Positions 127-20,619 of a stretch of 39,429 nt of DNA are shown piece after piece (the first letter of the stretch is position 1; every line of letters starts with the position of its first letter). Source of the stretch: a virus; the IMG/VR virus record IMGVR_UViG_3300009151_000156, positions 1-39,429 of that record; one strand, given 5' to 3'. The notes beneath the pieces are model-generated. The model was not told the DNA's origin. It saw only the letters and a program-made list of their open reading frames with translations, and did no database searches. The translations under genes and the position numbers were made by a program.

Positions 127-161
127 GGTTTGAGCCAATTCGGAGGAGGTTTGAGCAACTC
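127..161. repeat. Left-end transposase binding sites
   Basis: Two same-orientation copies of GGTTTGAGC occur at 127-135 (followed by CAA) and 148-156 (followed by AA). The second lies in a 17-base block, GGAGGTTTGAGCAACTC (145-161), that recurs inverted at 39275-39291 near the other end. A weaker third copy, CCTTGAGCGAG, lies at 188-198. Arrays of transposase sites near both termini are the hallmark of Mu attL/attR. Binding by this phage's MuA is inferred. Confidence 0.7.
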
Positions 162-212
162 TTCGCCTTTTGGTGCTTTTTAGACAGCCTTGAGCGAGCC
201 GTGAATCGGTCT

Positions 213-3200
213 TTAAGGCGGGCTGATCACCGAGCTTTCCACGAAGTCGATCAGCCCGACCGTAATTGCCGGCGAATCAGTCGCCGCGACACTCAACGCG
301 ACGGATGACGACGGCCCGTCGTAGCATCGGTTCAGAGGGTTAGGATCCCCGACAGAATCGACCGCGGCCGCAATTCCCGGAGCGACGGGAGTTGGGGAGA
401 CAGACCCGCTCCTCAGAACCAAACACTCGACCGAATGAACGACGGCGATCGAGTCGAACACGTTCCCCATGCTCGAGCCGTCGCTCCAGGCGAAGTCCGC
501 GGGGTTTCCGGTCGGGTGACACTGCCGGCCCGAGAAGATTCCGGACGTTAGATAGCGCCGGACGACTGAGACGTCCCGGACGATTTGAGCAACGACAACC
601 GGGGCCCCTTCGAGCATGTCCGCGAATTGATCCGGGAGGGCGTATATCGCGTCCCCGATCGACTCCCACCGGTATTGGATCTGACCCGTGTTTCCGCTGA
701 GGATTGGAGTCGATCCGACGAGGTCGATCCCGCCGCCGGACGTTACGATCTCAAGGGCAGAGTCCGCCCACGCCGACCACGTCGTTATTCCCGGCGCGGG
801 AAAGGGCCCCTCGTAGAGGATGGCGAAGTCCGAACCGGAGCCTGCGCCCGCCTCCCAAGTTCCGGGCCCGGCGAAGACGTTCGCGCCGTTGCGGACGACA
901 ACGCCACCGATCTGTTGGAGCCCGCTTCCGGTCCTCATTTGAAGGCTCGCGGGAACCATGACCCGGAACTCCGTTAGGAGGTTGAGGGCCTTCGAGAACC
1001 CCGCCGCCACTTCGGCAAACGGCATCGTCCACTGGAGAGGTCCAAAACCCTGCGGCTTGTCTGCCCTGGTTTCCTCCTTCCCGACCTCGCTTGTGGGCCC
1101 GGTTCCAAGGGTCGAAAACCAGCGGCCTCCGGACGCCTGGAAACAAAGGTTTTCAAACGTGAAGGAATAAAGCCCGACCGACCCGTAGGCGCACGAGTTC
1201 GTGACGCTCGTTTGGCCGTCAATAAACCCCTCACAAGCGGCGCGAATGTAGAGGTCCAACATTGGGAAGATGTCGCTTCCCATCGGGGTGTCCGAATCGT
1301 CGCCGTCGTCGTTCCCATCGAGCCACGGTTCCGGGACAAGGCGGACGAAATTAAAATGGGGCCATGCGGCCCCCCAAGGGCGGTCTGGTTGGCTTTGAAT
1401 TGGAGAGTTCCACGACTCATCGCCGAGCTTGATCGAGGCGTTGGTTCCGGTCGTGTCCTTGACGATCTTTTCCCGGAGGCCGTTCTCCCATGTTCGATAG
1501 CTCTCCGCGCGCAACGCTGAGACATCCCAAGTCGATGGATCTCGGGCGATCGTTCCGGGGGCCCCTGAGTGGTGATGCACCCGACCCTGAAGCGTCACCT
1601 TCACGAGGTCGCCGTCCATGACCACGCTTTGAACTTCAGGCCACGGTTCGAACACCCTACACGAACGGTAGAAGTCGCGCCGGGCACCCTCGCAAACCGT
1701 GTCGCCAACCGTGCAAAGCGCGCGGTTCGCTCTGCCCCCCGCCGACAGGGCCAAAGGCGTTGGCATATATCGGAAGCTTTCCGGGATCTCAGGGGTGAGA
1801 ACCGCGGCGGGTGAGATCATCCGGTTCCCGAAGGCCACGTGCTTGACCACGACCTTATCCAACGCGATGGCCGGATCCCCGAAAACACAGCGGTCCATCA
1901 TGCCTAGGTAATCGCTAAACGCCTCGGGCTTGTAGATGCTCGCCGGGTTGTCCTTGTAGGGCAGGAGTTGAACCCCGAGAAGCCAGCGGTTGCTCCATCC
2001 TTGAGGCTCCGCAGTCGCCCGGATCCCGTCCGCTTCCCAGACTTGTCCGGCGCCGGTGAATTCCGCCGTGTCCGAACGCCCGACAAACGTCTGCCCGACC
2101 CCGAACATCCGCCCGGCATACGTGACCGCCTGCCCGGCTGTTCCCTGGACGATATACTTCCGGCCCCAAACGATCGCACCGGAGCCAACCTGGAAGCGGG
2201 ACGGGGCGATCCCCTCGAACAGATCGACCGGGGTCGCATGGCTCAACCCGTAGGAATAGCGGTTGAACCAAAGGACCGAGTTCCCGTTCTCGATCGCGTA
2301 GCCGGCGAGTTGAGGCGCCGCCATCATTCGGACCGACTGGGAAAGCCTTCGGGCGGCATCGAATACGGCGTTCGAATTGATCGGCCCGAGCGTCCCCGGC
2401 AATGCGACGTGCCCGAGTTGGGAGCGGATCACGCCCTCGCTTTGGTAGGCGTCTCCGATCTCTCGGGAGAACTCGCAAGAGTCCCCGGATCCGTCCACCC
2501 AATCGCCGCCGATCACCCCGCCGCAACGGAGGATCAAGTAGAGGTCCGCGAGGCTGGGTTGGTAGGCCATGAGTTCCGTGATTTCGCACCGGATCTCCCC
2601 CGCCGTGTCGAAGCCGGCGGAGGAAGCCAACCTGAACCCGAATTGTCCGCCCTCGCTTGGCCGGTCGAAGGTGAGGATCGCGGCGCCGCTCCCGTCCGCT
2701 GCAGGCGTGATCGTGATCACCCCGAGGACGTCCCCGCCCTTCAGCACCTCGACGTTGAGAACGCCGACAAGTTTTTTGACCCGAACGAAGGCTGAGGCGC
2801 AAACAAAACCCGGCGAGACGTTGTACCACGACCCGAGGCCGCCGACGGTGTTCTTGATCATCGTGCCTGCGGGGAGCCATCCCGCCGCGCCCGTGATCTC
2901 CCAACGTGGGTATCGGGGGGCCACATACGGGCCGACCTCGATCCCGCGTTGAGGGCTTAAATGGTATTGAGTCGTGAGGACCTCTTGGACACGGAACGCC
3001 GCGTCACCCCATCCGCCCGTCGCTCGCTGGGAATCGGTCCCGCGGAACTCACGGATGAACGCGTTGAGGGCGCGGTCATAAAATCCGCTGTCGGTTTTGC
3101 GGAGCGATGGGTTTGACGTGTACGGCCCTTCGAGCCAGAGCTTCTTCCGCAGGACGTCGACCGTTCCGTTGAACTTGAAAACGACGTTGGCGAATGGAGT

Positions 3201-3914
3201 CGAGACCACGCCGAGCGCATCGCCTGGATTGCTCGGGCATGTCCCGTAACTTCGGACCGTCAACGACCCGTCAAGTTTAGTGAACTGCACCGTGTAGGAA
3301 GCGGTGGTGTCGTAAGGGGCCCCGCACTGTCCGAGATACTCGGGGCCCGGAAGATAGTCTCCCCAACAAGCGGCCGCGGTTGCGGATGTCGGGTTTTGCC
3401 GGAGGTAGGAATGGGAGGCGGCCGCGGTGAGCGCTGGAGCCCCCATCCCGCCCGTCAACGGATCGATGGCGCCGCGTTGTCGTTTGGCGAGCGTCCAGAG
3501 TTCCTCGGGCGATCCTCCGCCCGCGTCCATGTCGATGCCGCCCGATCCGGGGTCCGAGATCCTCAGATCCTCAGAATCGACCCCCGCCGTCGCGTTCCCA
3601 TAAACGAACGCCGGCATAGCGCTTGCGAGGTTCGCGCCTTCCGGATCTCCGGGCCCCGTGGCCGGGTATTCGGCGGAGTTCTTTGCGAGCATCTGAAAGA
3701 CCTCGAAGAACTCGGCTTGCGTCGGGAATAAGAACCCCGAGGAGTCCGGATTCCGGATCTGCCGGAATGCCTGAAAGAGCGACCAAACGATCCGCCACGG
3801 GACCGACGGGCCAAGCTTGACGCGGTCGTTCATCGCGCGGGCTTGGCTCGCGTACACCCGAGAGGAAACCGGGTCGCCCGGAGCGGGCACGATCGCTCGG
3901 GTGTACGTGAACAT
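213..3914 (-). CDS. Very large tail protein, last gene of the late block
   Basis: This 1233-residue protein is the largest in the phage and the last late gene, ending about 100 bases from the left terminus. No domain is recognised with confidence. It has no signal peptide or membrane segment, is rich in Gly, Ser and Trp, and contains many scattered cysteines (for example [13 protein letters not shown] and [12 protein letters not shown]), unusual for a cytoplasmic phage protein. Its position after the tape measure and a 300-residue tail protein suggests a distal tail, baseplate hub or central fibre component. The N-terminus ([15 protein letters not shown]) sits 9 bases after the previous stop. 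The function is inferred from position only. Confidence 0.8.
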
Positions 3915-3923
3915 CGAAGGGGA

Positions 3924-4310
3924 TCAGGCGGCCGCGACGACAGCCTCGTATGGGACGGAGGCGATCGGGCTTTGAACGCTCGGGGCGTTGAACATCCGCC
4001 CAACGAACGCCTCGCCGGGGAGGATCTTCGCGATGCTCCGGGCCGCGGCGCTGATCGTTTCGCGGACGATGATATATTGCCCCGCCGTGGTCGAAGTGTT
4101 GTGGATCTCAACGAGCATCTCCGCATCCGGGACCGATCCGAGGGCGACCGCTGTGTCGGTGCTTGGGGTTCCGCTCGTGTATCCGTTCGAGTGGTTGTGG
4201 AGCTCGCTTGTCCGGGCGACGCTCACGCCGGAGACGCTACAAGTGATCGAGCCTCCGGCGGCATCCTGAGACACGAGAGAGGCGGTGAGTGTGGCTGTTC
4301 CTGCGGGCAT
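3924..4310 (-). CDS. Small tail-region protein, 128 aa
   Basis: The protein is rich in Ala, Ser, Thr and Val and is predicted to be mostly beta. It includes the segments AEMLVEIHNTSTTAGQYIIV and KILPGEAFVGRMFNAP. A pattern of 'mean value / amount of substance with error term' strands of this kind is common in small virion proteins that decorate capsids or tails. It resembles in style the cement-like protein at 16438-16839. It lies between two large tail genes, so a tail accessory or fibre-attachment role is more likely than a head role. There is no signal peptide. The family is not recognised. Confidence 0.75.
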   Translation of the reverse strand: MPAGTATLTASLVSQDAAGGSITCSVSGVSVARTSELHNHSNGYTSGTPSTDTAVALGSVPDAEMLVEIHNTSTTAGQYIIVRETISAAARSIAKILPGEAFVGRMFNAPSVQSPIASVPYEAVVAAA

Positions 4311-4353
4311 AAGATTGGATTAAGTGAGGGTTTACCGGCGGTTGAAACTGGGA

Positions 4354-4548
4354 TCAAACGAAGCGGGGAATGCTCGAAGCCTGTCGGCGCTGGACGCCAC
4401 TTGATCGCGCGGGCCTCGATTGAGATCCGAGCGGGTGAGAATCCACCTGAGACCACGCGGTCCGCTGGAGGGTGTTTTGCCGGGTGTTGTCCTGAATTTC
4501 ACGGATCGCTTGAGAGATGGGCCCGTTGCCCCTTAGTGGTCGGCTCAT
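4354..4548 (-). CDS. Possible 64-aa ORF in tail region
   Basis: The 242 bases between two tail genes (4311-4552) contain one short ORF whose ATG follows the upstream stop by 4 bases. The protein starts MSRPLRGNGPISQAIREIQ and then becomes very basic and low-complexity (QSRPARSSGVQRRQASS), which makes the second half doubtful. In the overlapping minus frame the stretch 4320-4456 also reads well (SIEARAIKWRPAPTGFEH), so a frameshifted longer gene is possible. Its location matches the compact late operon, but no family is recognised. Confidence 0.35.
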   Translation of the reverse strand: MSRPLRGNGPISQAIREIQDNTRQNTLQRTAWSQVDSHPLGSQSRPARSSGVQRRQASSIPRFV

Positions 4549-4552
4549 GTGG

Positions 4553-5455
4553 TTAGAGGATTGGTGCCCCGTAAATGAAGGCGTCGAACTCGTCGGCGAA
4601 GGTGTAGTTCGTCTCGACGCGGACGCGGTTCGCGTCCTCCTGGTTGAAGCTTGGCATTTCCTTGATCCAGAACCCTGCCATTAGGCGGTCGCTCGCCCTG
4701 ATTTTCGCCCGGATCAATGGGATCAGATCGCTCTCGATCCGGAGCAATGCCCCGGTCGTGTAGAGGCCGCCGAAATTGTCGAAATCGACACCCGCCGCAG
4801 TCACCGATGCGTTCGACGGGCAGACGTCAACCCTCGACAGCATCACGCCCGCAACCGGGAAACTATCCGACCCGAGACCATAAGATCCCAAGAGTAGCTC
4901 GAACGTCTTCATGTCGGCGGCCGCCGTCACTTTGTAGCGCCGCATGAGCTCCGTGAACGAGAGCTTCCACGAAGAGGTTGAGTCGACCGGCGTTGGGTTG
5001 TTGCTCGTTGTATCCCCTCGAACGAGCGCCTCGAAGTCTGTCCGGAACCTGTTCCTGGTTTGGGCATCCTTGAAGATCGCGATCATCGCGTTTCTCACGC
5101 GCGGGATCATCCAGAGCGGTTTCGTGAGCCGGGCCGGCTGAAGCTTCCAAACGGTGACGATCTGAGAATCCGGCGACGGCGGGTTCGATGGATCGAGCCC
5201 TTGGTAAATCGCGCGGAGGATGTAGAAGGCGTCGCTGTCCTTGTACGGCGTGATCGATTTGATTCCGCCGAGTGCGGTCGCAAGATTCCAGACGACAGCG
5301 CGCTTCCCGAGGAACGAACGGGTCGCCGCCCAAATGAGCGACTGCGGGTCCTGGTGCGCCTCGACCGGCAATTCCAGGACCATGCTTCGCGGGTCGAACT
5401 TCGACGTCTTGACGTAGCTTGGCGGCTGGGACTGAACGATGGTGGGAAGAATCAT
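4553..5455 (-). CDS. Putative distal tail protein, 300 aa
   Basis: The gene follows the tape measure with only a few bases between them, the usual place for distal tail or baseplate proteins in siphoviruses. It is a soluble 300-residue protein with no signal peptide. The C-terminal half contains SELIPLIRAKI-type mixed segments and ends with TNYTFADEFDAFIYGAPIL, which looks like the end of a beta-sandwich domain. No catalytic motif is visible, so there is no support for calling it an endolysin. The assignment is by position. Confidence 0.7.
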   Translation of the reverse strand: MILPTIVQSQPPSYVKTSKFDPRSMVLELPVEAHQDPQSLIWAATRSFLGKRAVVWNLATALGGIKSITPYKDSDAFYILRAIYQGLDPSNPPSPDSQIVTVWKLQPARLTKPLWMIPRVRNAMIAIFKDAQTRNRFRTDFEALVRGDTTSNNPTPVDSTSSWKLSFTELMRRYKVTAAADMKTFELLLGSYGLGSDSFPVAGVMLSRVDVCPSNASVTAAGVDFDNFGGLYTTGALLRIESDLIPLIRAKIRASDRLMAGFWIKEMPSFNQEDANRVRVETNYTFADEFDAFIYGAPIL

Positions 5456-5458
5456 GGC

Positions 5459-6709
5459 TCAGAATGCGCCCGAGATTTGAGACGGCAACGACCGCAAAAG
5501 AGCGGTGGCTTGTTTGAGCTCTGCCAACTGTTGTTTGCTCAACTCCGGCAGACTGTCTCCGGCGCCGCCCACGAAGAGCCCGATCTTTGAAAGCTCGTCC
5601 CCCGGCATCCTGTACCCGGTGTTGTTCCTGGACATTCGAGAGACTCGGTCGATCTCGATTTGCTCCTGTTGGCCCGTGAGCCGCGCGGCGATGAGTGAGC
5701 GCTGATCCGCGACCCCCGCCAGGGCGTTCCGTGTCTTCGCGGACTCCTCGACGTCATCCTTCGATCGGTCCAGATGCTCGTTGAGTTGCTTCTCTTGAAG
5801 ATCGAGGCCCGCCAATTGGTTTCGGGACTCCTCTTCGGCGATGCCGCGGAGCCGCGCCGCGTACCGCTCGTTCGTGATCAATCCGAGCTCGAGCTTCTGC
5901 CGGAGTTGCGCCTTCTCCGTGTCGAACTCCGTCTGGGCGATTTCGGCGAGCACGTGGGCATGGTTCCGGGCGGCCTCTTCCTCCGTTTTATAACTCGTGA
6001 GGACCGCCGCTTTGATTTGCTGGATGAGCTCCGGGATCTTCGCCTGGACTCCCGAGGAGATGATCCCGCCGGCAAACGAGCTCGACCGCGATGCGACCCC
6101 GTTTTGACGAAGGAGGGTGAGAATCGTCTGGTCGAGGTCCTCCGCGTTTCCGCCGCGGAAGGCTCCGCTCGTTCGCCCTTCCGACACGACGCCCCGGAGG
6201 CGGTTTAGAACCTCCGCGTTGTTTCCCGTTTGGGATCCCTGGATCGCGCCGTTGAGCCGGCGCGTTTCCTTCATCTGGTAAAACCCATAGGCGACCGCAC
6301 CGATCCCGGCTGCAGCACCCGCTCCCGCGGCGAGAGCTCCGCTCCCGATCGCGCCCAACTGGGAAACCACGCTCACGAGTTCGCGGAGCCGGAGGATCTC
6401 AATCCCGATGCCGTCGATCCCGAGAACTCGGGAGATGGCCCGGATCTTAAGCTGGGCGTTCGCGAGCTTCTCGTATTCCGCGGTCGTCTGGGAGACGATC
6501 TTCGGCCCGCTCGCCGAGCTCTCGCCGGAATAGGATTTTTTGTCCGCCAGGAATGAAGCGGGGTCCGATGCTAGGTTTGTTGAGGACCGGAAAAACCGCT
6601 GGGCCGACGCCGCCATGTTGTCGAGGCGCGCCGTCGTCGCGTCCGCTTCCTTCCGGACATCCGAGAAGTCGGCTTCGCCTTTGATCTTCAGCGTTCGTTG
6701 GTCGCCCAT
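5459..6709 (-). CDS. Tape measure-like tail protein, short
   Basis: The start MGDQRTLKIKGEADF at 6709 is chosen because it lies 1 base after the previous stop; the frame is open further upstream but there overlaps the preceding gene. The 416-residue protein has a helical N-terminus, a hydrophobic Gly/Ala-rich segment (GALAAGAGAAAGIGAVAYGF, about residues 125-150) and a long charged coiled coil (about 235-345). This architecture and its position after the tail assembly gene fit a tape measure protein, which sets tail length and helps DNA exit. At roughly 0.15 nm per residue the tail would be about 60 nm. It lacks any recognisable lytic domain. Confidence 0.65.
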   Translation of the reverse strand: MGDQRTLKIKGEADFSDVRKEADATTARLDNMAASAQRFFRSSTNLASDPASFLADKKSYSGESSASGPKIVSQTTAEYEKLANAQLKIRAISRVLGIDGIGIEILRLRELVSVVSQLGAIGSGALAAGAGAAAGIGAVAYGFYQMKETRRLNGAIQGSQTGNNAEVLNRLRGVVSEGRTSGAFRGGNAEDLDQTILTLLRQNGVASRSSSFAGGIISSGVQAKIPELIQQIKAAVLTSYKTEEEAARNHAHVLAEIAQTEFDTEKAQLRQKLELGLITNERYAARLRGIAEEESRNQLAGLDLQEKQLNEHLDRSKDDVEESAKTRNALAGVADQRSLIAARLTGQQEQIEIDRVSRMSRNNTGYRMPGDELSKIGLFVGGAGDSLPELSKQQLAELKQATALLRSLPSQISGAF

Positions 6710-6710
6710 A

Positions 6711-7361
6711 TCAGGATAAAGCGCGGAGCCGCGCCTCTTGTGTCGCCGCCCATTCGAGGCGGGCCTTGGTTTCCTGCGGATCGAATGCCCGGCGTCGAGC
6801 GTCCGCTTCGGCTTCCCCTCCGTTCCCGTCGATCGTGAGGACGTTGCGTTCCTCCCATCGGGCGAGCCAAAGCCAATTTGCTTGCGCGACTGGGATGTCG
6901 AGGACCGCCGGCCACGCCACGTTCCATTGAGATGCCAACGCTTGCGCCAAAAGGAGCTCGTGGGGGGTTCCCCTCTTCCCGTCGTCGCTTCCTCCTTCCG
7001 CCTTTTCAAACGGCGGAAGGCTCGCCTCGGAATCGATCCAGTCCTCGATGATGTCGGCGTCCAGGAGATGGCGCCCCGCGCGGCGAATCGTGAACCACGC
7101 GATTGTGAAGCGGCCCCGTCGGGTTCCGATTCCGGCGGCCGCTTCTTGCCATGTCCTCGTGATCACGTACCACGCCATCGCCACTTGGCCGGCGGACGGG
7201 TCCTCCTCCACCCTGGTTGTTAAAAGCGGATTGAATGGGGACCCCAATCGGCGGAGCAACGCGAGATGGCCAAGCGTGAGCGGCCCGAGGCGGAGCCCGG
7301 CGAGGCGCGCAATGGTTGGAACCACTGCGCGCGCAAAACGATCTGACGGGGAATCGATCAC
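6711..7361 (-). CDS. Tail assembly chaperone-like protein
   Basis: The gene sits between the tail tube candidate and the tape measure, the standard slot for tail assembly chaperones (lambda gpG/gpT, Mu gp41-type). The N-terminus contains LRLGPLTLGHLALLRRLGSP, a 'G-P-L-T-L-G-H-x-x-L-L-x-x-x-G-S-P-F' pattern I associate with tail assembly proteins of Verrucomicrobial phages. The C-terminus is Trp-, Arg- and Glu-rich (ANWLWLARWEERNV). I see no evident slippery frameshift into a longer product. Function is by position and pattern. Confidence 0.7.
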   Translation of the reverse strand: MIDSPSDRFARAVVPTIARLAGLRLGPLTLGHLALLRRLGSPFNPLLTTRVEEDPSAGQVAMAWYVITRTWQEAAAGIGTRRGRFTIAWFTIRRAGRHLLDADIIEDWIDSEASLPPFEKAEGGSDDGKRGTPHELLLAQALASQWNVAWPAVLDIPVAQANWLWLARWEERNVLTIDGNGGEAEADARRRAFDPQETKARLEWAATQEARLRALS

Positions 7362-7830: not shown

Positions 7831-8340
7831 TTAGGGGGTTCCCGAGAGTGCGACCGGGGTTTCGTCTTCGACTCCGAAGACATACAACGACCGGAGGGCG
7901 ATTTCGTAGCTAACGACCGGTGCCCCTTCTTGGGGTGCCCCGATTAAACGAATGGGGGATACTTCAGGAATCGGAACAAGCGGAGACCACCCGCCGTCCG
8001 GGGCCCAATTCAGGAGCGCAATGTAAACCCGGAGCGCCGCGGCCGCGGCCGTGATTCGTGTTCCCTCTCCAAATTGGTTTTGAACGATGTTTTCGTTCAC
8101 GATCACCGACACCTTTGCGACAAGTTCCGAGGCGACCTCGCCGCCCTGGATCTCGGGAGTCGAGACGATGAGGCAAAGCCCGAGCTTCGATTGGAGGGCG
8201 ACCTTGAGCTTCTGCTCGAAGTCGCTCAAACGCTCCGTCAAGACTTCGACGGGTGGAGGCCCGGAGAATCCGCCCCGATCGAGGAGGCGTCCGCGGACGC
8301 TCTCGTTGAGTTGGTCAATGAGATCGAAGCCTTGCCACAT
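7831..8340 (-). CDS. Tail terminator / Mu gp37-like protein
   Basis: The start MWQGFDLIDQLNE at 8340 is chosen over an upstream in-frame Met because it lies 1 base after the gpG-like stop. The 169-residue protein has an N-terminal helix, then KVSVIVNENIVQNQFGEGT and YIALLNWAPDGGWSPLVP strands, and ends in a YEIALRSLYVFGVED strand. This resembles the alpha/beta fold of tail terminator or neck proteins (DUF1834/gp37 position in Mu-like phages). The order gpG-like, terminator, tube is the common one. The family assignment is tentative. Confidence 0.6.
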   Translation of the reverse strand: MWQGFDLIDQLNESVRGRLLDRGGFSGPPPVEVLTERLSDFEQKLKVALQSKLGLCLIVSTPEIQGGEVASELVAKVSVIVNENIVQNQFGEGTRITAAAAALRVYIALLNWAPDGGWSPLVPIPEVSPIRLIGAPQEGAPVVSYEIALRSLYVFGVEDETPVALSGTP

Positions 8341-8341
8341 A

Positions 8342-8923
8342 TCAATTGAGGAGCGCGTCGGCGCTCTCTTCGACGGCATCCATCGCCGCCTTCATTAAGG
8401 ATCCGGTGCTCGGGATTGCGTTCGGGTCCGCGGCTTGCGTCACCTGTCGCACAACAAGAAAGAGGACCTCCCCGACAACACCCTTCGCTTCAATCGACGT
8501 GATGATTCCAACGAGGTTCCCCCGATTCAGCGGGACGAACTTGGTCTCGCCGTCCGCCCTCATCTCGCGAGCCGTTTTCCCGTAAGAACGAGGAGACACG
8601 GGAAACGCTAGGGCCTTTGAGTTGACGGGCCGGATTGTCCCGCCATAGAGCTTTTGGAGGATTGGCGCGGGAATCGTCACGACCGCTTCGGTCTCGCTCG
8701 AAGTGACCGAGGTTCCCGCCGAAATCTTTGCCCAAAACCCCGTCTTGGGTGCTCCCATTTTGTTCGGTTCATGCTCGCGCCGGTCGAAGTGCTCCTGGAC
8801 CGCCGATAGCATGGCCGCCCCGATCGCCTGATGCAGGACGCGGCCGCCGAGACGCTCCCCGAGCTTCCGGATCGCCGGGGTCGCGCCGTTCGCCGTCAAG
8901 CGGATGTTGATCGAGGCGCTCAT
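8342..8923 (-). CDS. Virion morphogenesis protein, Mu gpG-like
   Basis: A 193-residue basic protein. The segments EHFDRREHEPNKMGAP, SSETEAVVTIPAPILQKLYGG and VNSKALAFPVSPRSYGKT match the phage virion morphogenesis family (Mu gpG / P2 gpS), where an early 'FDxxGxPxxWxPL'-like helix-loop precedes a 'hxxGGxIxPxxxKAL-x-FP' element. These proteins complete tails and help join heads and tails. It lies directly after the gpF-like gene, as in Mu. Its C-terminal helix (SLMKAAMDAVEESADALL) is typical. Confidence 0.75.
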   Translation of the reverse strand: MSASINIRLTANGATPAIRKLGERLGGRVLHQAIGAAMLSAVQEHFDRREHEPNKMGAPKTGFWAKISAGTSVTSSETEAVVTIPAPILQKLYGGTIRPVNSKALAFPVSPRSYGKTAREMRADGETKFVPLNRGNLVGIITSIEAKGVVGEVLFLVVRQVTQAADPNAIPSTGSLMKAAMDAVEESADALLN

Positions 8924-9834
8924 TCTGGGACGAGTTCATCGCCGGCGGCCTTGAAAAGCCCATGGACGACATCAAGCAACGCCCCGCGGAGCCCGAGGCT
9001 AAAGGCGGAGATAGAGGCCCTGAAATTGTCCTTCAATCGGCGTTTAATGGCCGGCGCCGTGTCCATCGCGGCGACTTGTTCCGCGGGCGTGGCGAGGCCG
9101 TCCGGAGCCGGCGCGACCCGTTCCCGCTTTTGAATAACGCCAAGCCTCACGGCCTCGGCGCGACCGACCGACCGCCGCCCGTACCCGGTGTTGAAGTCGA
9201 CGGGATCGTAAGGCAACCCGAACCGGCTAAGGTTCTCCCACACCGGGTCGTTGACGCGGGCGATCATTCGCCCGCCGTAAATCGTCCCGCCGGCACGCAC
9301 CCACCGGTCCTCCCAGTAGCGGGGGTTCTCCGCCACAAGGGCCCCGGCTTTGATTCGATAACCTCGGGGAACACGGCGCGGGGAGATGCGTCGGAATTCC
9401 GCGCACGGAAACAGGAGGAGCGCCCCTTCGGTTTGGGCCTGACGCCATTGCCCGAACCCGTGAGCCATTCGAAGCTGGGTGTCGATGATCAGGTTCAGCC
9501 GGCCATCCGTTCGGAGGTCCGAGATCGTTCCCTCGCGCCCCGCCGCCGGCTGATAGTCGAGCGAATCCAGGAGTTCTTTAAGCTCGGTCCGAACGCTCGC
9601 GCGGTTTGGGAGTTGGCCCGGCGCTTGGCTGAGGCCCGAAGCCATCGTGTCGATGCGGTCCTTAACCACTTGCAACACCTCGGTCTCCATCACGCCCGCC
9701 GAGAACACCGCGCCCTGTCGCACCTGGACCGGCAATTCGGACAACTCCGCCGACGACATATCGGTTGGCAAAAGCTTCCGCTCGCTCGCGAATCGGAGCG
9801 CCTCGGCGAATGGTATCTGGCCCGCTGAGATCAT
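8920..9834 (-). CDS. Head morphogenesis protein, Mu gpF-like
   Basis: The start at 9834 gives a 4-base ATGA overlap with the tailspike stop and a 304-residue product. The segment RFGLPYDPVDFNTGYGRRSV followed by RAEAVRLGVI is a pattern seen in phage minor head / head morphogenesis proteins (SPP1 gp7 / Mu gpF group) from this host group. The N-terminal half (LRFASERKLLPTDMSSAEL, then AVFSAGVMETEVL) also fits that group. Such proteins bind the portal or capsid interior. It is unusually far from the portal (9 kb), separated from it by fibre genes. Confidence 0.65.
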   Translation of the reverse strand: MISAGQIPFAEALRFASERKLLPTDMSSAELSELPVQVRQGAVFSAGVMETEVLQVVKDRIDTMASGLSQAPGQLPNRASVRTELKELLDSLDYQPAAGREGTISDLRTDGRLNLIIDTQLRMAHGFGQWRQAQTEGALLLFPCAEFRRISPRRVPRGYRIKAGALVAENPRYWEDRWVRAGGTIYGGRMIARVNDPVWENLSRFGLPYDPVDFNTGYGRRSVGRAEAVRLGVIQKRERVAPAPDGLATPAEQVAAMDTAPAIKRRLKDNFRASISAFSLGLRGALLDVVHGLFKAAGDELVPE

Positions 9835-12689
9835 CGCGCGGTCGTGGTTGAGATCCGGAGCGTTCCCGACGCTAGGTCGATTGCGCCCCCGGTCGGGTTG
9901 AAGAGTGTCACCCTGCAGAGGTCGTTGGCCGTCGCGGCGCCCGTTAGGATCATCCCTTGGGTGTCGAGAGAGAACGAGGCCTGGACGATGTCTCCAGGAA
10001 GAGCGCCTAGGACCGTGATTCCGCTGAGTTGGATTGATCCGCCAGCGGCGACCGATGCGGGATCCCACGTCAAGGTCCCGAACCCTTGCACCGTAAATCC
10101 AACCTCCTGCCCCGCCTGCATTAGGCCCGGCGTGAATCCGGTGAGGTTAAGCGGGTTTCCTGTCGCGGGATCAACAAGGCGCGCGACGACATAGGACGTC
10201 GGCGCGTCGAGATAGATGTCGGTGATCAGACCGTCCACCGGCGCGGGCGTTCCGAGAAGGTGAACAAGTTGTCCGGCTTGATGGTAGCCTCCCGCCAACC
10301 AGTTGTAGACCGCTGATCCAACAACGCCTCGGACCGCGTTCGTTGACGGTTGCGCGTTGCAATAGTCGCCCGGAACTGTTCGGGACCCCGAAGCGGTGAT
10401 GATGATCGGCCGCGGCGGTCGTTGGGATTGGTCCATGATCACGTCCCCGAGCGAGAACGTCTGCCCAAATGGGACACCGTTCGTTGACCAAAACACCGTC
10501 CCGGCGTTGTGCCCTTTCTGAGACGGCGAACTCACCGGGAAGTTGTTCCCGCTCGCCTGGATCGAGAGGTTCGATTCTGCCTGTAAATCCTCGAACTCGG
10601 AGAACGAGAACGAAGGCGTTCCGATGGGGTTCACCGCCGTGTTGTTTTTGATTACAACGGGGAAGCGGACGTCGGCCGTGTAGTTCGCGTTCCACGACCG
10701 CGTGAAGTTCATCACAAACGCGGTCTTTCCCCATGGCGCGCGCGCGTAATTGTCGAGGATGTTCCACTGCCCGCGCCCGCTTGGTCGAAGCGATCCGGCG
10801 TGGAGAACGTTCCCCTTGATCGTGCCGATCGGCATCGGTTGAAACACGGCGATCGCCGCGGCCCGAAGTTGGAGCTCGGCGTAGATGTCGCCGGTCTCGA
10901 AGACGTTGTTTGCGATCGTGTAGCGATCGACCGGAGCTTGCGGCCCGTCAAACCCGCCAGCGAAGAACGCCCCGACCCCGAGGATCTGCTGCGTCGACGA
11001 CATTTTCGCCCCGTAGTTTCCCGCAACCGTGAACCGTTGAACGCCGATCATCTCGACGCATGTCGTCGTGAGGGGTTCCGCAAGAACGAGGCCGCCACCG
11101 GTCGTCGTGACGTAGCTTTCGTCCATGTCCGCGAACCGGTTCCCCGAGACCACGACGTCGGTGTAGTACTCGGCGTGGATCCCGTAGCGGGCGCGGGTGA
11201 TCGTGTTGTCCTTGATCGTCGCGAGATGTATCTGGTTCGTCTCGTTTCCCCAATTGTCCGCCGACCAACCGGCGACTGAGAGAGCGAACCCTCCGAACCC
11301 ATTCGATCCGTTCCAAAGGAAGTGGATGTTGTCCAAACGGTTTCCGGTGAGCTCAACGGATCCGTCGGCGAGGTTTGGCTCCCATGCGACCCCCCCGATG
11401 AACATGTTGGTAAAGACTGATCCCGTGACTCGCCCGCGATGGCAGAAGATGTTCGTGTTCGGAGAGCTCATCGCGTTGTTCTCTCGGATCACTCCCGACC
11501 CCATGTTCTCGAATCGGCAACGATCGACATGGAAGGAATTCATCACCGCATCCTTGGAGATGTTAATTGCCCAACCTCCGCCGACGCCGACGAAGTTAAG
11601 GTCGCGAACGTAAACGTCGCCTCCGAAAAACTGCATTTTCCGAGGCTCCCAATCGTATCCCAGACTAACCAGTCCTCCGCCGTCAACGACGACGCTCCCG
11701 GCAAACACCCAATAGTTCGGACCGCTCACCGTTCCGCGGATGTGGATCAAGCGGTTGGCTGGGACATTCAACGCGGCGCCGTGGTAGGTCCCCATGTAGG
11801 TCGTCGTCCCCGCCGGGAAGGTGATCTCCTGCGTCGCGTTCATTGCGTCCTGGACTTGGATCTCGTCGTTCGTCGATCCGTCCGATTTCGCGCCGAAGTC
11901 CCGAACGTTGAGCGCTCGGCGATCGCGCCTTACCCAATAGACGGTCGGCGAATCCGTGGTCGCAAAACAGGTTCCCCGGTTCGTTCCAGTGATGTCCGCG
12001 GGAAGCGAGTTTGTCGGGACGAGATGAAACGTCCCGCCGCCGTCGCCCGCCGTCGCAAAGTATCCGCGGACGAACACCGTGATGTTCGTCGTCCCCGATA
12101 GGGAGTCGGTCCGGGTCGCGAGGAGGTCTGCAATCGAGTTTACCGATCGGCTCGCCGTTAGGCTGTTGAGCGTGTTTTGAGCGGAGGCGATCGCGGCGTT
12201 GTATGATGTCGCGATCGATGCCGGAAGTCCGGTCACCGACGCTGTGAGAAACGCGATCGAGGAGTTCGCAGAGGTTGTGAGCGACGAGATCAGGCCGCTC
12301 AAATAGTTCGAGCTCGTGGTGATGTCCCCAACCCTCGCCGTGTTCGTGGCCTGGATCGCCGACACCAGCGAGTTGGACGTCCCCGAGATTCCGGAGGAGA
12401 CGCCCAAGATTGCTCCGTTGAGGTAGTTCGACGTGGCGTTTATGTCGCCAATCCGCGCCGAATTCGTGGCGATGAGCGCGGCCACAAGGCTGTTTGACGT
12501 GCCATTTACCTGCCCGGCGGTTGCGCGGAACAGGAGGTTGGTGTTGATGGCGAAGAAGTTTGTCGAAGCCCCGGTCAAGATCCCGTTTGTCCCGGTGATC
12601 ACGCTGAACGTCTTTGTTGATGGCAGCGGGCTTTGCGCCATGCCAACGAAGGAGAGGAGGAACGACAGGAGGAACGGTAGGTGCTTCAT
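9831..12689 (-). CDS. Beta-helix tailspike/fibre with signal peptide, 952 aa
   Basis: Residues 1-20 (MKHLPFLLSFLLSFVGMAQS) form a clear Sec-type signal peptide with an AQS cleavage-like end. Residues 60-140 contain two copies of a GTSNSLV...ATNSARIGD...SNYL repeat. A pectate-lyase-3 type motif NVRDFGAKSDGSTND (261-275) begins a right-handed beta-helix (to about 720), with repeated 'N-x-F-x-N-x-x-x-G' turns. The C-terminal 230 residues look like separate beta domains. Such proteins usually bind or degrade surface polysaccharide as tailspikes. A signal peptide on a phage spike is odd: either it is exported to the periplasm or surface, or the peptide is a Verrucomicrobial-phage peculiarity. Confidence 0.85.
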   Translation of the reverse strand: MKHLPFLLSFLLSFVGMAQSPLPSTKTFSVITGTNGILTGASTNFFAINTNLLFRATAGQVNGTSNSLVAALIATNSARIGDINATSNYLNGAILGVSSGISGTSNSLVSAIQATNTARVGDITTSSNYLSGLISSLTTSANSSIAFLTASVTGLPASIATSYNAAIASAQNTLNSLTASRSVNSIADLLATRTDSLSGTTNITVFVRGYFATAGDGGGTFHLVPTNSLPADITGTNRGTCFATTDSPTVYWVRRDRRALNVRDFGAKSDGSTNDEIQVQDAMNATQEITFPAGTTTYMGTYHGAALNVPANRLIHIRGTVSGPNYWVFAGSVVVDGGGLVSLGYDWEPRKMQFFGGDVYVRDLNFVGVGGGWAINISKDAVMNSFHVDRCRFENMGSGVIRENNAMSSPNTNIFCHRGRVTGSVFTNMFIGGVAWEPNLADGSVELTGNRLDNIHFLWNGSNGFGGFALSVAGWSADNWGNETNQIHLATIKDNTITRARYGIHAEYYTDVVVSGNRFADMDESYVTTTGGGLVLAEPLTTTCVEMIGVQRFTVAGNYGAKMSSTQQILGVGAFFAGGFDGPQAPVDRYTIANNVFETGDIYAELQLRAAAIAVFQPMPIGTIKGNVLHAGSLRPSGRGQWNILDNYARAPWGKTAFVMNFTRSWNANYTADVRFPVVIKNNTAVNPIGTPSFSFSEFEDLQAESNLSIQASGNNFPVSSPSQKGHNAGTVFWSTNGVPFGQTFSLGDVIMDQSQRPPRPIIITASGSRTVPGDYCNAQPSTNAVRGVVGSAVYNWLAGGYHQAGQLVHLLGTPAPVDGLITDIYLDAPTSYVVARLVDPATGNPLNLTGFTPGLMQAGQEVGFTVQGFGTLTWDPASVAAGGSIQLSGITVLGALPGDIVQASFSLDTQGMILTGAATANDLCRVTLFNPTGGAIDLASGTLRISTTTAR

Positions 12690-14104: not shown

Positions 14105-16372
14105 TTAGTTGCGGGCTACTTTTCGGGCCAGCTTCTCAAGCTTTTCGTCGAGCTCCTGGATTGCGGAGACGAAGACCGGGAAGAGCTTCCCGTATCCCGC
14201 CTCAAGCCGGTCCGGGTTCTCGTCATAAACGAGCCCCGGAACTTGGAAGTGTTTCTGTTGAACCCTCTGGAGTTGTTGGGCCATGAATCCGGAGTCCCGG
14301 ATTCCAACCTTGGATCCATCGCGGGATTTCCAGTCAAAGACCCACGGCTCAATGTCGCGCACGAATGCAAGTCCACCGATGAGTCTCCAGAGCTTTTGCT
14401 TGTCCCGCTCGTCCGACAGCGACGTGATCGTCGTGACTTGGCAGCGGAGCGTGGCGACCGAGGAATTCCCGAGCGTGATCTCGTTCGCGATCGTCGCGGT
14501 TGACGGCTGGGCGTTGTACCCGATGCACGTGACGTTTCCGGTTCCTCCGGTGAGACTGGATCCTGCGACGCTGCCAAGCGCAGTGCATTGGCTGAAGTTC
14601 CCGTTCCAAAGTGCGCGATGCCCCACCGCCGAGTTGTCCGTTCCGGCAACGATCGTCACCAGCGCCTGATTCCCGACCCCGGTGTTGTTGGCTCCCGTCA
14701 CGCCGCCGGAGAGGCAGGATTGACCGATTGCGGTGAGCTGCGATGCGGTTGACCCGGCACTTAGCCCCGCCGAGCTTCCCACGACACACGCTGCCGTCGT
14801 CACACCCCTTGTTCCAACAAAGATCCCGCTTATCGTCGAATCGAACGCTGCTGTGAGACTTCCGCAGGTCCAATCCGAATCCCCGGTGTCGTCACCGAGC
14901 CGGGCTGACATTTTCGCAGCACTGACTCTCTTGATTGCCGGATGTCCCGCACTGGCTGCCCCGAAACACAGCCGAGAAAACCCCGTGCCCGCGTTGTTCG
15001 ACAAGATCAGGATCCCGTCGCCGCTCGACTGAATGGTTCCTCGAAGCGTCGTGCTCGTTCCGCTCCAAAACGAATGAGTGCCGGTCTGGTGGACGTCCTT
15101 TGGACGACTTCCGGCCGCGGCCCCAATTGTGTACAGGTTGTCCGTGAACAGGAGATTCCCGGTCAACGTTCCGCCAGCGAGCGCAAGGTAGGTTGCTGCC
15201 GCGGTTGCGCTGGTGATTGAGTCGGTGATCCCGTAGCCCGCCAGAGTCGTTGCCTTGGCAGCGTAGCCGGACGCCACCGCTGCCGCCGTGATCCCGTCGG
15301 TGATCCCGTATCCGGCAAGAGTCGTCGCCTTGGCGGCGTATCCGGACGCTACCGCTGCGGCCGTGATTCCATCGGTGATCCCGTAGCCCGCCAGCGTCGT
15401 CGCCTTGGCGGCGTAGCCGGACGCCACCGCTGCCGCCGTGATCCCGTCGGTGATCCCGTAGCCCGCAAGCGTCGTCGCCTTGGCGGCGTATCCAGACGCT
15501 ACTGCTGCGGCCGTGATTCCATCGGTGATCCCGTAGCCCGCCAGAGTCGTTGCCTTGGCGGCGTAGCCGGACGCCACCGCTGCCGCCGTGATCCCGTCGG
15601 TGATCCCGTATCCGGCAAGCGTCGTCGCCTTGGCGGCGTAGATTGATGTCGCCGCCGTGATCGTGAGGAACGTCCCCAGCGAAGTCGCTAGTCCCGTGAT
15701 CTTGGCGATCGAAAGCGTGAGCCATCCCGGATCGGAATAGGTTCCCGTAGTCACGACCGCATCGGCGATTCCCGCCGCGGCCGCCGTGGTCGGCTTCGAG
15801 CTCAACCACTGCCAAGGGAACGACACAAGCCACGCGGGGTCCACGTAGCGCCCGTTGGTCGAGACGCCGTCGGTGATCCCTGCCCCGTTCAACGTGTTCA
15901 ACGTTGGGGAAGTCGTTGGCCCAATGAGATCACCGAAGAGGCGCGTCCGCGTCGATGCGATCTCCGCGCCTCCGCCGGATTGAATGCTCGGCGTAACCTC
16001 GGGGTTCTGCGGGATCGAAACCCGGAGTTGCCCCAGGGCGACTTGGTGGAGGTCCGCCTCGGCGCGGGTGAGGATTGTCTTCTGCGAATCAGAAAAGGGA
16101 ACGGCATCGCCGAGCCGGATCTTCAACGCCTGGATCACAAGCCAGACGGCATCCTGGAAAAGCTCGGGCGGAATCAGCGTCGCGTCCTGGTCGATCTTGT
16201 TCCCCGGATGGCTCGCGATGAATCCGCGAACCCGAGGAACGACGACCGCGATTGCGTCCAGGACGGGATCCCCTTGAGTGACGGCGAGCGCCGCGGTCCG
16301 GAGTGAGTCGAGCTCCGGCGCCTGCAGCGCGGAATAGACGTCGGCCGTCGTGATGGGAATCCAGTTTGGCAT
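14105..16372 (-). CDS. Fibre: connector-like N-terminus, repeats, S74 chaperone end
   Basis: The 755-residue protein has four parts. Residues 1-130 (starting MPNWIPITTADVYSAL, with VRGFIASHP and a 'IPPELFQDAVWLVIQALKIR' helix) resemble small Mu gp36/DUF1320-type head-tail connector proteins. Residues 250-390 hold six copies of a 25-residue AAKATTLAGYGITDG-based repeat. Then comes a trimeric beta-helix with 'N-T-x-V-G-x-x-A-L' turns (about 515-640). The end (from SDERDKQKL, about 653) is a peptidase S74 intramolecular chaperone domain, which trimerises and usually self-cleaves near the SD. It lies next to capsid genes rather than distal tail genes. Confidence 0.85.
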   Translation of the reverse strand: MPNWIPITTADVYSALQAPELDSLRTAALAVTQGDPVLDAIAVVVPRVRGFIASHPGNKIDQDATLIPPELFQDAVWLVIQALKIRLGDAVPFSDSQKTILTRAEADLHQVALGQLRVSIPQNPEVTPSIQSGGGAEIASTRTRLFGDLIGPTTSPTLNTLNGAGITDGVSTNGRYVDPAWLVSFPWQWLSSKPTTAAAAGIADAVVTTGTYSDPGWLTLSIAKITGLATSLGTFLTITAATSIYAAKATTLAGYGITDGITAAAVASGYAAKATTLAGYGITDGITAAAVASGYAAKATTLAGYGITDGITAAAVASGYAAKATTLAGYGITDGITAAAVASGYAAKATTLAGYGITDGITAAAVASGYAAKATTLAGYGITDSITSATAAATYLALAGGTLTGNLLFTDNLYTIGAAAGSRPKDVHQTGTHSFWSGTSTTLRGTIQSSGDGILILSNNAGTGFSRLCFGAASAGHPAIKRVSAAKMSARLGDDTGDSDWTCGSLTAAFDSTISGIFVGTRGVTTAACVVGSSAGLSAGSTASQLTAIGQSCLSGGVTGANNTGVGNQALVTIVAGTDNSAVGHRALWNGNFSQCTALGSVAGSSLTGGTGNVTCIGYNAQPSTATIANEITLGNSSVATLRCQVTTITSLSDERDKQKLWRLIGGLAFVRDIEPWVFDWKSRDGSKVGIRDSGFMAQQLQRVQQKHFQVPGLVYDENPDRLEAGYGKLFPVFVSAIQELDEKLEKLARKVARN
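15213..15644 (-). repeat. Six 75-bp tandem repeats in the fibre gene
   Basis: Six 75-base units encode near-identical 25-residue repeats. Synonymous differences alternate between odd and even copies: the odd units have GCCGCCGTGATCCCGTCGG, the even units have GCGGCCGTGATTCCATCGG. This makes a 150-base higher-order unit repeated three times and points to recent duplication of a dimer. The lowest-coordinate copy, which is the last in the protein, diverges (ITDS). Confidence 0.9.
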
Positions 16373-16437: not shown

Positions 16438-16839
16438 TCAGAAGTAAGCGTTGAGCGTGAAGTTCAGGCCGGTCACGACACCGCCGGCCGCATCCTCCGC
16501 CACACTGACTCGCACGTACTGAGGCGCGGTACTCGCGAGGCGGAAGAGATACTCACCCGCCGGGGTTCCAATGCCGCCGGCGCCGGTGATCGTTTTGGTG
16601 ATACCGGCGTTGGTCCATGTGGAGTTGTCCGGCGAGGTTTGCACGTTGAAGATGAGGTTCTTCGTGTCGGCAAGCGGGGTGACCAAAGGCCACACAATGC
16701 CGAATTCGAGGCGCTCGCTCTGGAGATACTTTGGCCCGAGGTCGAGCGAGGCGGAGTTTGCGGTTGCGCCCGCCGCGGGAAACGCGGTGACGGCCGTGAG
16801 GTTGGCGTCGAGAATTCCACGCCCTAGTACGTTTGGCAT
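16438..16839 (-). CDS. Capsid decoration/cement-like protein, 133 aa
   Basis: A beta-rich protein with SERLEFGIVWPLVTPLADTK, FNVQTSPDNSTWTNAG and EYLFRLASTAPQYVRVSV. The 'V-Q-T-S-x-D-x-x-x-W' followed by 'Q-Y-V-R-V' layout resembles Bbp16-type capsid cement proteins. It directly follows the major capsid gene in transcription order, the usual place for a decoration protein that stabilises expanded capsids. The family match is tentative; the virion role is likely. Confidence 0.7.
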   Translation of the reverse strand: MPNVLGRGILDANLTAVTAFPAAGATANSASLDLGPKYLQSERLEFGIVWPLVTPLADTKNLIFNVQTSPDNSTWTNAGITKTITGAGGIGTPAGEYLFRLASTAPQYVRVSVAEDAAGGVVTGLNFTLNAYF

Positions 16840-16882: not shown

Positions 16883-17818
16883 TTAGCGGATCGCCTCAGT
16901 CTGGAGGAGCGAATCGGTAGCGATGATCGGCACGCCCTCGTAAGAGGACGGGGTCGGGGCGATGATCCCCTGCCCGGCGCCGGGAAGGCCCGCGCCTTGG
17001 CCGAAGATCGACACCGTTCGCGACGCCTGGAGCAGCTGTCGCTGAACGCGGTTGCAAAAGATGTGGGTCGGACGGATCCCGACCGGGAACTTCGCCATCG
17101 CTTGAGCGAGGAGGAGGTCGGTCAATCCTTTGCCGGTCTGAATCGTTAGATTCTTGATGACGACCAACGCATGGATATTGAGGAACTCGATCCCGACCCA
17201 ACCTTCGATTGAGTTGTTCCAGACCGTTTGTTTGGTCGTTCCATTCGTGACCGTCTGCTTTCGCCACTCGGCGACGCTTAAGGTCATGTTGTTTCCGTAG
17301 ATGAAGTTGAAGAACCGCGGGTCAACCACGGCGAGGTAACACGAGGACGCGGCGTTCGCGGTCGATCCGGTCGCGTCGATTGTGTGGGCCGCATCGGCGA
17401 AATCGATTCCGCCGGGGAAGCCCTTCGGGTCGTTTGCGCGCCCGTACCACATCTGGGATCCGAGGGCCAAGAGGGTGCCCTTCATGTGTCCGGATGCCTC
17501 GGCGGTCATCACATAGTCGGGGCCCTGTTCCGATGCGTTGACGATCGCGTTGTCGATCTCCATCTGGGAGTCGAGGTAGTACGTCTCGTGGATTCGGTTT
17601 GCGTAAACCGACTTCTGAGGAGTGCGACCTTCGTTGGCGTTGCGGAATCCGACGGTCGGGAAAGTCGATCGCACAAGCGACCGGAAGGAAGTGCCCTTGA
17701 TCGTGCGCGCGGGAATGATTTGAGCTTCCGGCGCAGCGGTTAGGTTTTCCTCGATCAGGCCAATGTCGGTGGCTGTTCCGTTGATCTTCGCGAGATCAAG
17801 AAGCGTGAGTACTGGCAT
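16883..17818 (-). CDS. Major capsid protein
   Basis: A 311-residue protein follows the protease/scaffold gene. Segments LIEENLTAAPEAQIIPARTI, GTSFRSLVRSTFPTVGFRNA and the C-terminal YEGVPIIATDSLLQTEAIR match a major capsid family seen in phages of Verrucomicrobia and Planctomycetes, with an HK97-type fold. It does not look like Mu gpT itself, so the capsid gene may come from a non-Mu lineage. It forms the icosahedral shell around the scaffold. Position and ending support the call strongly. Confidence 0.8.
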   Translation of the reverse strand: MPVLTLLDLAKINGTATDIGLIEENLTAAPEAQIIPARTIKGTSFRSLVRSTFPTVGFRNANEGRTPQKSVYANRIHETYYLDSQMEIDNAIVNASEQGPDYVMTAEASGHMKGTLLALGSQMWYGRANDPKGFPGGIDFADAAHTIDATGSTANAASSCYLAVVDPRFFNFIYGNNMTLSVAEWRKQTVTNGTTKQTVWNNSIEGWVGIEFLNIHALVVIKNLTIQTGKGLTDLLLAQAMAKFPVGIRPTHIFCNRVQRQLLQASRTVSIFGQGAGLPGAGQGIIAPTPSSYEGVPIIATDSLLQTEAIR

Positions 17819-18984: not shown

Positions 18985-20619
18985 TTAGTTTCCCCTCAAA
19001 CCGAGAAGGACTTGTTGGCCTAGTGCGGTTCCGAGGATCTCGACCGCCCTCTCGTCAATGCCTCGCCGCTTGAGATAGTCGGCAAGGCCCACATTGATTC
19101 GATCGAGCTCCGGCAACATCTCAACGTCCGGGAGGCTTCCGATCCGCTTGATCTCCCCCCGCAATGGGGCAAAGAAGTCACCCAACGCTTCGGCGACCTT
19201 ATCGGTCGTTGCCTCGACGAACGCGGCGCCCGGAGCCTCGTTCGCTCCCGTGGCCTCGGGTTTCTTGTCAATCGCCGGATCAGGATTGCCTTCTGGATCT
19301 TTCCCGTCGGGGATCGGATCGCCCTTCGGAGCCGGCGCCGCGGTTCGCGTGATCACGTCCGAACCCGGAGCCGGGGTGCTTCGGTTGTAACGCTCGAACG
19401 TCTCCGCCTTGTCCAGGGGTTGGCCCGAATCCAGGAGGAACTGGTCGACCTTGATCTCTTGGGCCGTGTCCACCGTGATTGGCGGGATGATCTGGATCTT
19501 CGCCAATGGTTCGACCCCTTCCCCGAAAAGGTAGGCGACCACTTGAGGGTCGATCCGCTTGTTCAGAATCTCGGAGAGTTCGCGGGCGTCGTCCTGTTCG
19601 AGCGCCTCGATCTCCCCCTGTTGAAGGCTCGCCCCTTGCCCCTGCCCGGAGCCCGCCGACATTGTCGCGAGATCCGCACCAAGCCAGAGCGCTGTGATCC
19701 ACCGGTCGCAGTATTCGACGAGCGCCGGATGGGGAAGGGTTCCCGCCCCTCCGGCTATAATGAGCTCCACGGCGGCGTCCAGATTGATCACCCCGGCGCC
19801 GTCACCCACGAGAGCGGCGACCATTGCCTTCATGTCGTCCCACTGCGTCGTCCCTTTCGTTGCGGGGGATTTCCCGAGGACAAACGGCAAGCCGAACTTC
19901 TCCGTGTAGTTTGCCCAATCGTTGAGGCTCATCTGCTGAATTGCGATGATCCCAACCGTCGCCCGCATGATCCCGTCGCTCACGCTCACCAACCATTCGT
20001 TTTCCGGCATGTCGTACCCGATGCCCAAGCCCGGCTGGGGAAGCCATCGGAGTTTACCGATCCGCGCCTCGAAGCTCCAAAGCGGCCAGAATCGGAACTC
20101 GGCGGTGAAGGGCCTTGATCCTTGGGCCGGCTTCCACGTGATCTCGTGGACGGCATATCGATTTCCGATTGCCCGCGACATCTGCCGGAGGAGTGTGCCA
20201 AGCCCTCCGCGGACGTCCGCTTCGAGGAGTTCCGTCGCGATCACGCCGCGGTAGAAATCCTGAAGGGCTTTCTTGTGCTTCTCCGCCTCCGCTTCTCGAC
20301 CCATGGAAGCGTCCGCATCGATGAGGATGTCCCATCGCATCCGCCCGAGCCTCTTCTCGCGTTTGCCGGCAACGTTCGAGACGACGTGGTTTCGGGTCCG
20401 AATAGCATCCCAAAGCTTGGCGATCGTGAACCACCCCCGCTCGAAGGCGTTGAGTTGTTCGAGGATGTTCGCCGGAACAAGCGAGGTCGCCGGGATCTTT
20501 TGAAGGATCATCCGGCGAATCGTTTCCGCCTCGCCCTTTATCGTCTGCTCGGGGGCGGGATTCCCGCCGGGATCAAGGACCGAGGCGGTCGCTGTGATAG
20601 ATGGGTTCGGATCAGACAT
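18985..20619 (-). CDS. Portal protein, DUF935 (Mu gp29-like)
   Basis: A 544-residue protein with the DUF935 pattern: LGRMRWDILIDADAS..., DFYRG helix, RAIGNRYAVHEITWK, FRFWPLWSFE, NDWANYTEKFGLPFVLGK and WLGADLATMSAGSGQ. The FGLPFVLGK and 'L-G-x-x-L-x-x' segments are diagnostic of this Mu gp29 portal family. The C-terminal 130 residues are Pro/Asp-rich then helical. The portal forms the dodecameric DNA gate and docks the terminase. It overlaps a short upstream ORF by 8 bases (ATGTCTGA). Confidence 0.9.
   Translation of the reverse strand: MSDPNPSITATASVLDPGGNPAPEQTIKGEAETIRRMILQKIPATSLVPANILEQLNAFERGWFTIAKLWDAIRTRNHVVSNVAGKREKRLGRMRWDILIDADASMGREAEAEKHKKALQDFYRGVIATELLEADVRGGLGTLLRQMSRAIGNRYAVHEITWKPAQGSRPFTAEFRFWPLWSFEARIGKLRWLPQPGLGIGYDMPENEWLVSVSDGIMRATVGIIAIQQMSLNDWANYTEKFGLPFVLGKSPATKGTTQWDDMKAMVAALVGDGAGVINLDAAVELIIAGGAGTLPHPALVEYCDRWITALWLGADLATMSAGSGQGQGASLQQGEIEALEQDDARELSEILNKRIDPQVVAYLFGEGVEPLAKIQIIPPITVDTAQEIKVDQFLLDSGQPLDKAETFERYNRSTPAPGSDVITRTAAPAPKGDPIPDGKDPEGNPDPAIDKKPEATGANEAPGAAFVEATTDKVAEALGDFFAPLRGEIKRIGSLPDVEMLPELDRINVGLADYLKRRGIDERAVEILGTALGQQVLLGLRGN

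Follow-up and report, generated by a model that had tools for sequence, protein, structure and literature searches.

A long fibre gene that lies beside the capsid genes of a phage raises the question of what its N-terminal domain is, and of where in the virion a fibre built on that domain would sit. The gene belongs to a 39.4-kb virus record (the window, that is, the whole stretch of 39,429 nucleotides that was analysed) of a Mu-like transposable phage, with transposase-like and MuB-like genes at the right end (PHROG 310 and 296). The record is possibly an incomplete genome, and results on the absence of genes cover this window. Judged from its relatives rather than from an attached host genome, the phage probably infects Verrucomicrobiota bacteria. 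Its structural cluster lies on the minus strand, where a portal gene is followed by the genes for a Mu-type head protease, the capsid protein and a cement-like protein, and then by the gene in question:

18985..20619, minus strand: portal protein of Mu type, predicted to pair with the adaptor ring (Pfam Portal_Mu, 4.3e-49)
16883..17818, minus strand: major capsid protein, GP7 family (Pfam PF20911, 2.3e-16)
16438..16839, minus strand: cement-like gene, for head decoration, that separates the capsid gene from the adaptor (same position, 35% identity in L111)
14105..16372, minus strand: fused adaptor-fibre gene (P0001), 755 aa, a single open frame of 755 codons
9831..14093, minus strand: insert of 4 genes (13761, 13390, 12694, 9831) between adaptor-fibre and MuF
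8920..9690, minus strand: MuF-like minor head protein (adjoins the adaptor directly in L008, L009 and L011)
7831..8379, minus strand: tail-terminator-like gene in gp37 position, for the other side of the neck (in L006 and L010, homologues come right after a stand-alone adaptor)

Homologues of the capsid protein were present in 11 of 289 Verrucomicrobiota genomes, and the cement-like gene gave weak PHROG matches only. A sequence-only reading of this locus had placed the fibre gene between cement and minor head genes. This placement stood, as capsid gene, cement-like gene and fusion gene follow one another; four genes separate the fusion from MuF, which is thus not its immediate neighbour. Three of these (13761, 13390, 12694) were assigned no function from sequence. 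The fourth (9831-12689) encodes a 952-aa spike that resembles tail fibres and pectate lyases and has a signal-peptide-like N-terminus. The whole cassette is missing from the three relatives in which MuF adjoins the adaptor. Gene 13761 was also considered as the counterpart of the small gene that comes after the S74 fibre in L063 and L064, an idea that did not survive testing.

Profile scans of the window protein gave no direct Pfam or PHROG match for the N-terminal domain. Stand-alone homologues of this domain, 149-153 aa long, are encoded in L005 (41% identity) and L006 (36%), and viral contigs and genomes yielded further ones, with lengths of 140-157 aa. An adaptor profile built from ten sequences (A3) was positive in 58 of 388 Verrucomicrobiota genomes. 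Ten of 14 representative homologues matched PF07030 (Phage_Mu_Gp36) at E<=0.1, the best at 1.7e-10, and six of the 14 matched the head-tail adaptor family PHROG_195 (best 1.4e-12). The window protein itself is below detection by PF07030; the fused homologue in L049 passes the cut-off of 24.7 bits with 32.4. For a broad adaptor profile (A5), the top match among PDB sequences was Mu gene product J (gp36; E 0.0016). The narrow alignment A3 had matched only MCM4, by chance.

The predicted structure pointed in the same direction. An AF2 model of residues 1-152 (pLDDT 73) contained five helices (9-15, 18-31, 36-53, 69-87 and 95-112), followed by a C-terminal arm (C-arm, 121-150) that was unstructured in the monomer model. 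In a Foldseek comparison with 350,542 PDB chains, the first three places went to chains of the Mu neck, 9knu, 5ydn and 9khx (prob 1.00, 1.00 and 0.96), ahead of the JBD30 connector (prob 0.57) and then Sf6 gp7; E-values were weak (0.07-0.16, and up to 0.94 among the first four), and the rank order over all chains is the informative part. The TM score of the model to 5ydn was 0.71. Judged by homologous profiles and model, residues 1 to about 150 are thus predicted to be a complete head-tail adaptor of the Mu gp36 type, as the sequence-only reading had proposed when it described a gp36-type connector with a fibre behind it. A structure comparison was the check that this reading had called for, and its proposal withstood both that check and the search for a separate connector gene.

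The same reading had noted no separate connector gene, and in the window this held: hmmsearch --max over all ORFs of at least 40 aa recovered the fusion gene at 5e-58 and gave no second adaptor, the next E-value being 1.2. In related phages, stand-alone adaptors adjoin a capsid (or cement-like) gene upstream and MuF or a tail terminator downstream. The Verrucomicrobiota prophages L108, L109 and L110, which have a capsid protein of the same family, show the order capsid, cement, adaptor of 142-147 aa, and a terminator-like gene follows the adaptor in L108 and L110, the two that were checked. In the window this very place is taken by the fusion. The neck of Mu consists of portal, adaptor and terminator only (PMC11915804). 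The corresponding set in the window comprises the portal, one adaptor, which is the fusion, and the terminator-like gene at 7831-8379. From this set and from the locus, it is most likely the fusion that works as the adaptor.

The remainder of the protein is a fibre, and the gene can be divided as follows:

16013..16372, minus strand: residues 1-120, five-helix head-tail adaptor core of predicted Mu gp36 type (AF2, Foldseek, dN/dS)
15923..16012, minus strand: residues 121-150, adaptor C-arm with conserved C-terminal TR..L..L motif (alignment with 8 stand-alone homologues)
15653..15922, minus strand: residues 151-240, linker and start of the fibre shaft, motifs of the DPAWL..W.WLSSKPTT type
15221..15641, minus strand: shaft of tandem 25-aa repeats (AKATTLAGYGITDGITAAAVASGYA), 5.6 copies (TRF, 75-bp DNA unit)
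14417..15190, minus strand: distal fibre part with NNTGVG-type motifs (tblastn and PHROG_23837, 2.5e-42)
14249..14416, minus strand: residues 653-708, Peptidase_S74 intramolecular chaperone (Pfam PF13884)

Repeats and an S74 chaperone had both been named in the sequence-only reading, and both were recovered by the programs. The S74 domain has the expected C-terminal position and matched PF13884 at 6e-7 (30.1 bits, cut-off 22). It starts with an SDERDK motif that aligns with L063 and L064, and in S74 domains the SDxRxK pattern holds the catalytic serine. For the fibre tip, AF2 gave a model too poor to use (pLDDT about 36.5). In the shaft, the 75-bp unit is accompanied by a stronger higher-order period of 150 bp (95% matches). 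Number and type of the shaft repeats differ between the window and its sister phage L004, which suggests, as far as the sequences go, variation in fibre length or shaft.

The distal fibre part is related to the fibres of the Methylophilales phage Venkman (gp55), of vir515, and of L063 and L064. These have the same NNTGVG-type motifs and S74, but are stand-alone genes that sit in fibre clusters and have other N-terminal parts; the adaptor profile had no match in L063 or L064. The attachment site of a fibre is set by its N-terminal domain. By these relationships, the fibre half stems from a tail-fibre pool, with its N-terminal part swapped for an adaptor. The tail genes at 213-7361, including one for a 1233-aa tail-tip-like protein, had no Pfam or PHROG family match at the thresholds used, so a fibre at the tail tip, if there is any, would be unrecognisable by family search.

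We compared the window with related contigs. The fusion gene is identical in L003 and L007. L004 is a distinct phage (portal 90% and capsid protein 89% identical) that retains the fusion with a rearranged shaft. Between the window and L004 (dS 0.4-0.9), dN/dS was 0.017 for the adaptor core, 0 for the C-arm, in which there were no nonsynonymous changes at all, 0.116 for residues 153-240, and 0.067 for the fibre. The adaptor half was the most constrained part among all genes compared. Alignment placed the joint exactly at the C-terminus of the stand-alone homologues. The fusion is real, and both halves are under purifying selection.

The adaptor-fibre fusion is also not unique to the window, and the view of it as a one-off has to be given up, as it recurs in Verrucomicrobiota phages. 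Further fusions of an adaptor to a fibre or adhesin were found in L049 (740 aa), L052 (560 aa), L054 (363 aa), L098 (431 aa) and L099 (346 aa). Homologue lengths set the stand-alone adaptors (140-157 aa) apart from the fusions then known (363-755 aa); two of the fusions listed above were found later. In L099 (2657-3694), from a Verrucomicrobiota genome, the adaptor is fused to a CHB_HEX_C_1 (chitobiase/beta-hexosaminidase C-terminal) domain (PF13290, 3.8e-10). Mapping fused and separate forms onto a tree built from 75 adaptors takes five changes, at least four of which are forced by well-supported branches. A scan of viral contigs with the L052/L054 adaptor gave no match. Eleven other candidates (L025, L028, L046, L050, L051, L053, L056, L057, L066, L071 and L081) only looked like fusions because an upstream frame had been read back; their adaptors end normally.

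The nearest relatives of L049 have the two halves as separate genes. The adaptors of L068, L069 and L070 have the C-terminus ..RLLD* and are directly followed by a fibre gene, which in L068 and L069 begins before the adaptor stop has been passed. The C-terminal half of L049 is 54% identical to the separate L068 fibre gene over 291 aa (2e-91), and the L049 frame reads through the joint (..RLLDSILAALAIFAG..). A separate adaptor/fibre pair in L103 is the counterpart for the group of L052, L054 and L098. This Rosetta-stone pattern, as read from the genes, speaks for a link in function between the two proteins. That related viruses have come to the merger several times suggests that they have neck fibres besides those of the tail tip.

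Sec-signal-like N-termini are common on fibre- and spike-like genes in the structural clusters of Verrucomicrobiota phages. Examples are the window gene 9831-12689, L006:13359-14585, L005:14326-15342, L052:3366-4250, and the genes after the adaptor in L068, L069, L070 and L103. These starts occur although export is not expected for virion proteins.

The explanation that we favor, and consider probable, is that the sole adaptor of this phage carries on its C-terminus a trimeric fibre of receptor-binding type, displayed at the neck. After DNA packaging, 12 copies would assemble as the adaptor ring beneath the portal, with the C-arm (121-150) wedged between the portal clip domains, a binding mode with which the conservation of the arm is consistent. 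In Mu, JBD30 and Douge the arm passes between these clips and continues in the direction of the capsid vertex. The flexible linker, from 151 to about 175, would let the chain leave the neck. The C-terminal halves would form trimers, folded by the S74 chaperone, which would cleave itself off afterwards, and 12 chains could thus yield up to four collar fibres. A fibre covalently held at the neck, in place of a separately docked whisker, might aid adsorption or hold other parts. What the sequences show is the homology to adaptors, the one frame, selection in both halves, orthology by position and recurrence in independent lines. The 12-mer assembly, the exit of the chain, the trimer count, the neck display and the host-binding role are what we infer; neck display would be the most economical consequence, backed by the recurrent independent fusions and the Rosetta-stone pairs.

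The steric exit path is the weak point of this mechanism. The C-terminus of the JBD30 adaptor lies beside the portal wing, and the C-arm of Douge nears the capsid vertex (PMC11445458, PMC11915804, PMC13033339), so that a fibre there must leave a crowded site. Further observations count against the favored explanation. The Foldseek E-values are weak and PF07030 does not reach the window protein, stand-alone relatives indicate that adaptor function needs no fibre, and a signal-peptide-like hydrophobic segment between adaptor and fibre in L049, L052, L054 and L098 hints at export or cleavage there.

That segment is also an argument for the main rival explanation, which we regard as unlikely, but as the most serious of the alternatives. 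The fusion could be a polyprotein, translated jointly and then cut by a protease, so that the ring would consist of adaptor only and the fibre would go to the tail or elsewhere. The cut would be made by the head protease of the phage or, where the hydrophobic segment is present, by signal peptidase, and the fusion would serve co-expression only. A Mu-type head protease is indeed encoded by the phage, and the closest relatives with separate overlapping genes are already co-translated. However, the linker in the window (151-240) has no hydrophobic segment. S74 self-cleavage takes off only the C-terminal chaperone, and the C-arm and residues 153-240 are conserved in two distinct phages.

Less probable still is that the adaptor domain is a duplicate that anchors a fibre of the baseplate or tail, while the real one escaped the search or is encoded beyond the ends of the contig. 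The possible incompleteness of the contig and the several tail genes without recognisable family would allow for this. The search of the window ORFs for a second adaptor speaks against it, as do the exact position of the fused gene in the stand-alone adaptor locus and the constraint on the adaptor half, the strongest among the genes compared.

The phage might also make both products, a free adaptor by slippage or internal initiation and the fusion, so that few ring subunits would carry a fibre and crowding would be relieved. Two forms of one structural protein are made by frameshifting in some phages, and a stop in the +1 frame lies 7 codons beyond codon 150. Nevertheless, we found neither an in-frame -1 slippery heptamer in codons 120-180 nor a Shine-Dalgarno sequence before in-frame starts near the joint, and L049 lacks a start codon from codon 111 to about 206, which makes this proposal very improbable. 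An assembly artefact or chance frame is practically refuted: the lineage is seen only in metagenomic contigs and its shaft is repetitive, but the fusion is present in several contigs and in a diverged homologue under purifying selection across the joint, the repeats are about 90 residues away from the joint, and other fusions occur in genome assemblies.

A wider version of the favored explanation of display at the neck is more tentative, and we rate it as somewhat less likely than its opposite. The neck of Verrucomicrobiota phages could be a general attachment site, with fibres, adhesins and domains of carbohydrate-binding type captured by the adaptor gene time and again, so that the 12-subunit ring that seals the head becomes a receptor-binding platform too. 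That capture takes the form either of a neighbouring gene with overlap or of a fusion in frame is a suggestion that we hold with the same reserve.

The usual picture of an adaptor is a small ring that seals from within, and that of a fibre a part of the tail tip or a separately docked part of the neck. A covalent adaptor-fibre fusion would be a simple route to neck fibres that bind receptors. Because such fusions recur independently, once with a chitobiase-type domain, display at the neck may well bring an advantage to these phages, which have been little studied. No one-chain adaptor-fibre was found in the literature searched, in which subscription journals were thinly covered, so that this is weak evidence of novelty. 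The closest relatives among known systems are Mu gp36 (gene J), PF07030 and JBD30 gp41, with the same locus, predicted five-helix fold, C-arm and Portal_Mu portal family. As in Mu, the adaptor is used with a terminator and no recognised stopper. Mu gp36, however, ends at 141 aa with nothing C-terminal to it, whereas the window protein continues with 605 further fibre residues. T4 fibritin forms neck whiskers that are separate proteins. Anabaena phage A-1(L) has neck fibres made of gp82-gp81-gp80 (PMC10966104). In both, separate fibre proteins are docked on a neck ring, whereas in the window fibre and ring are one chain, with a neck site deduced from the genes. The closest published precedent that we found is the adaptor of roseophage R4C, which has a peripheral Ig-like attachment domain of about 106 aa at its N-terminus, thought to stabilise the contact with the capsid (PMC10276861). 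Like R4C, the window phage would have an adaptor with an extra domain around the neck, but here this would be a long C-terminal fibre of host-binding type, and its attachment point, fixed covalently, is directly testable.
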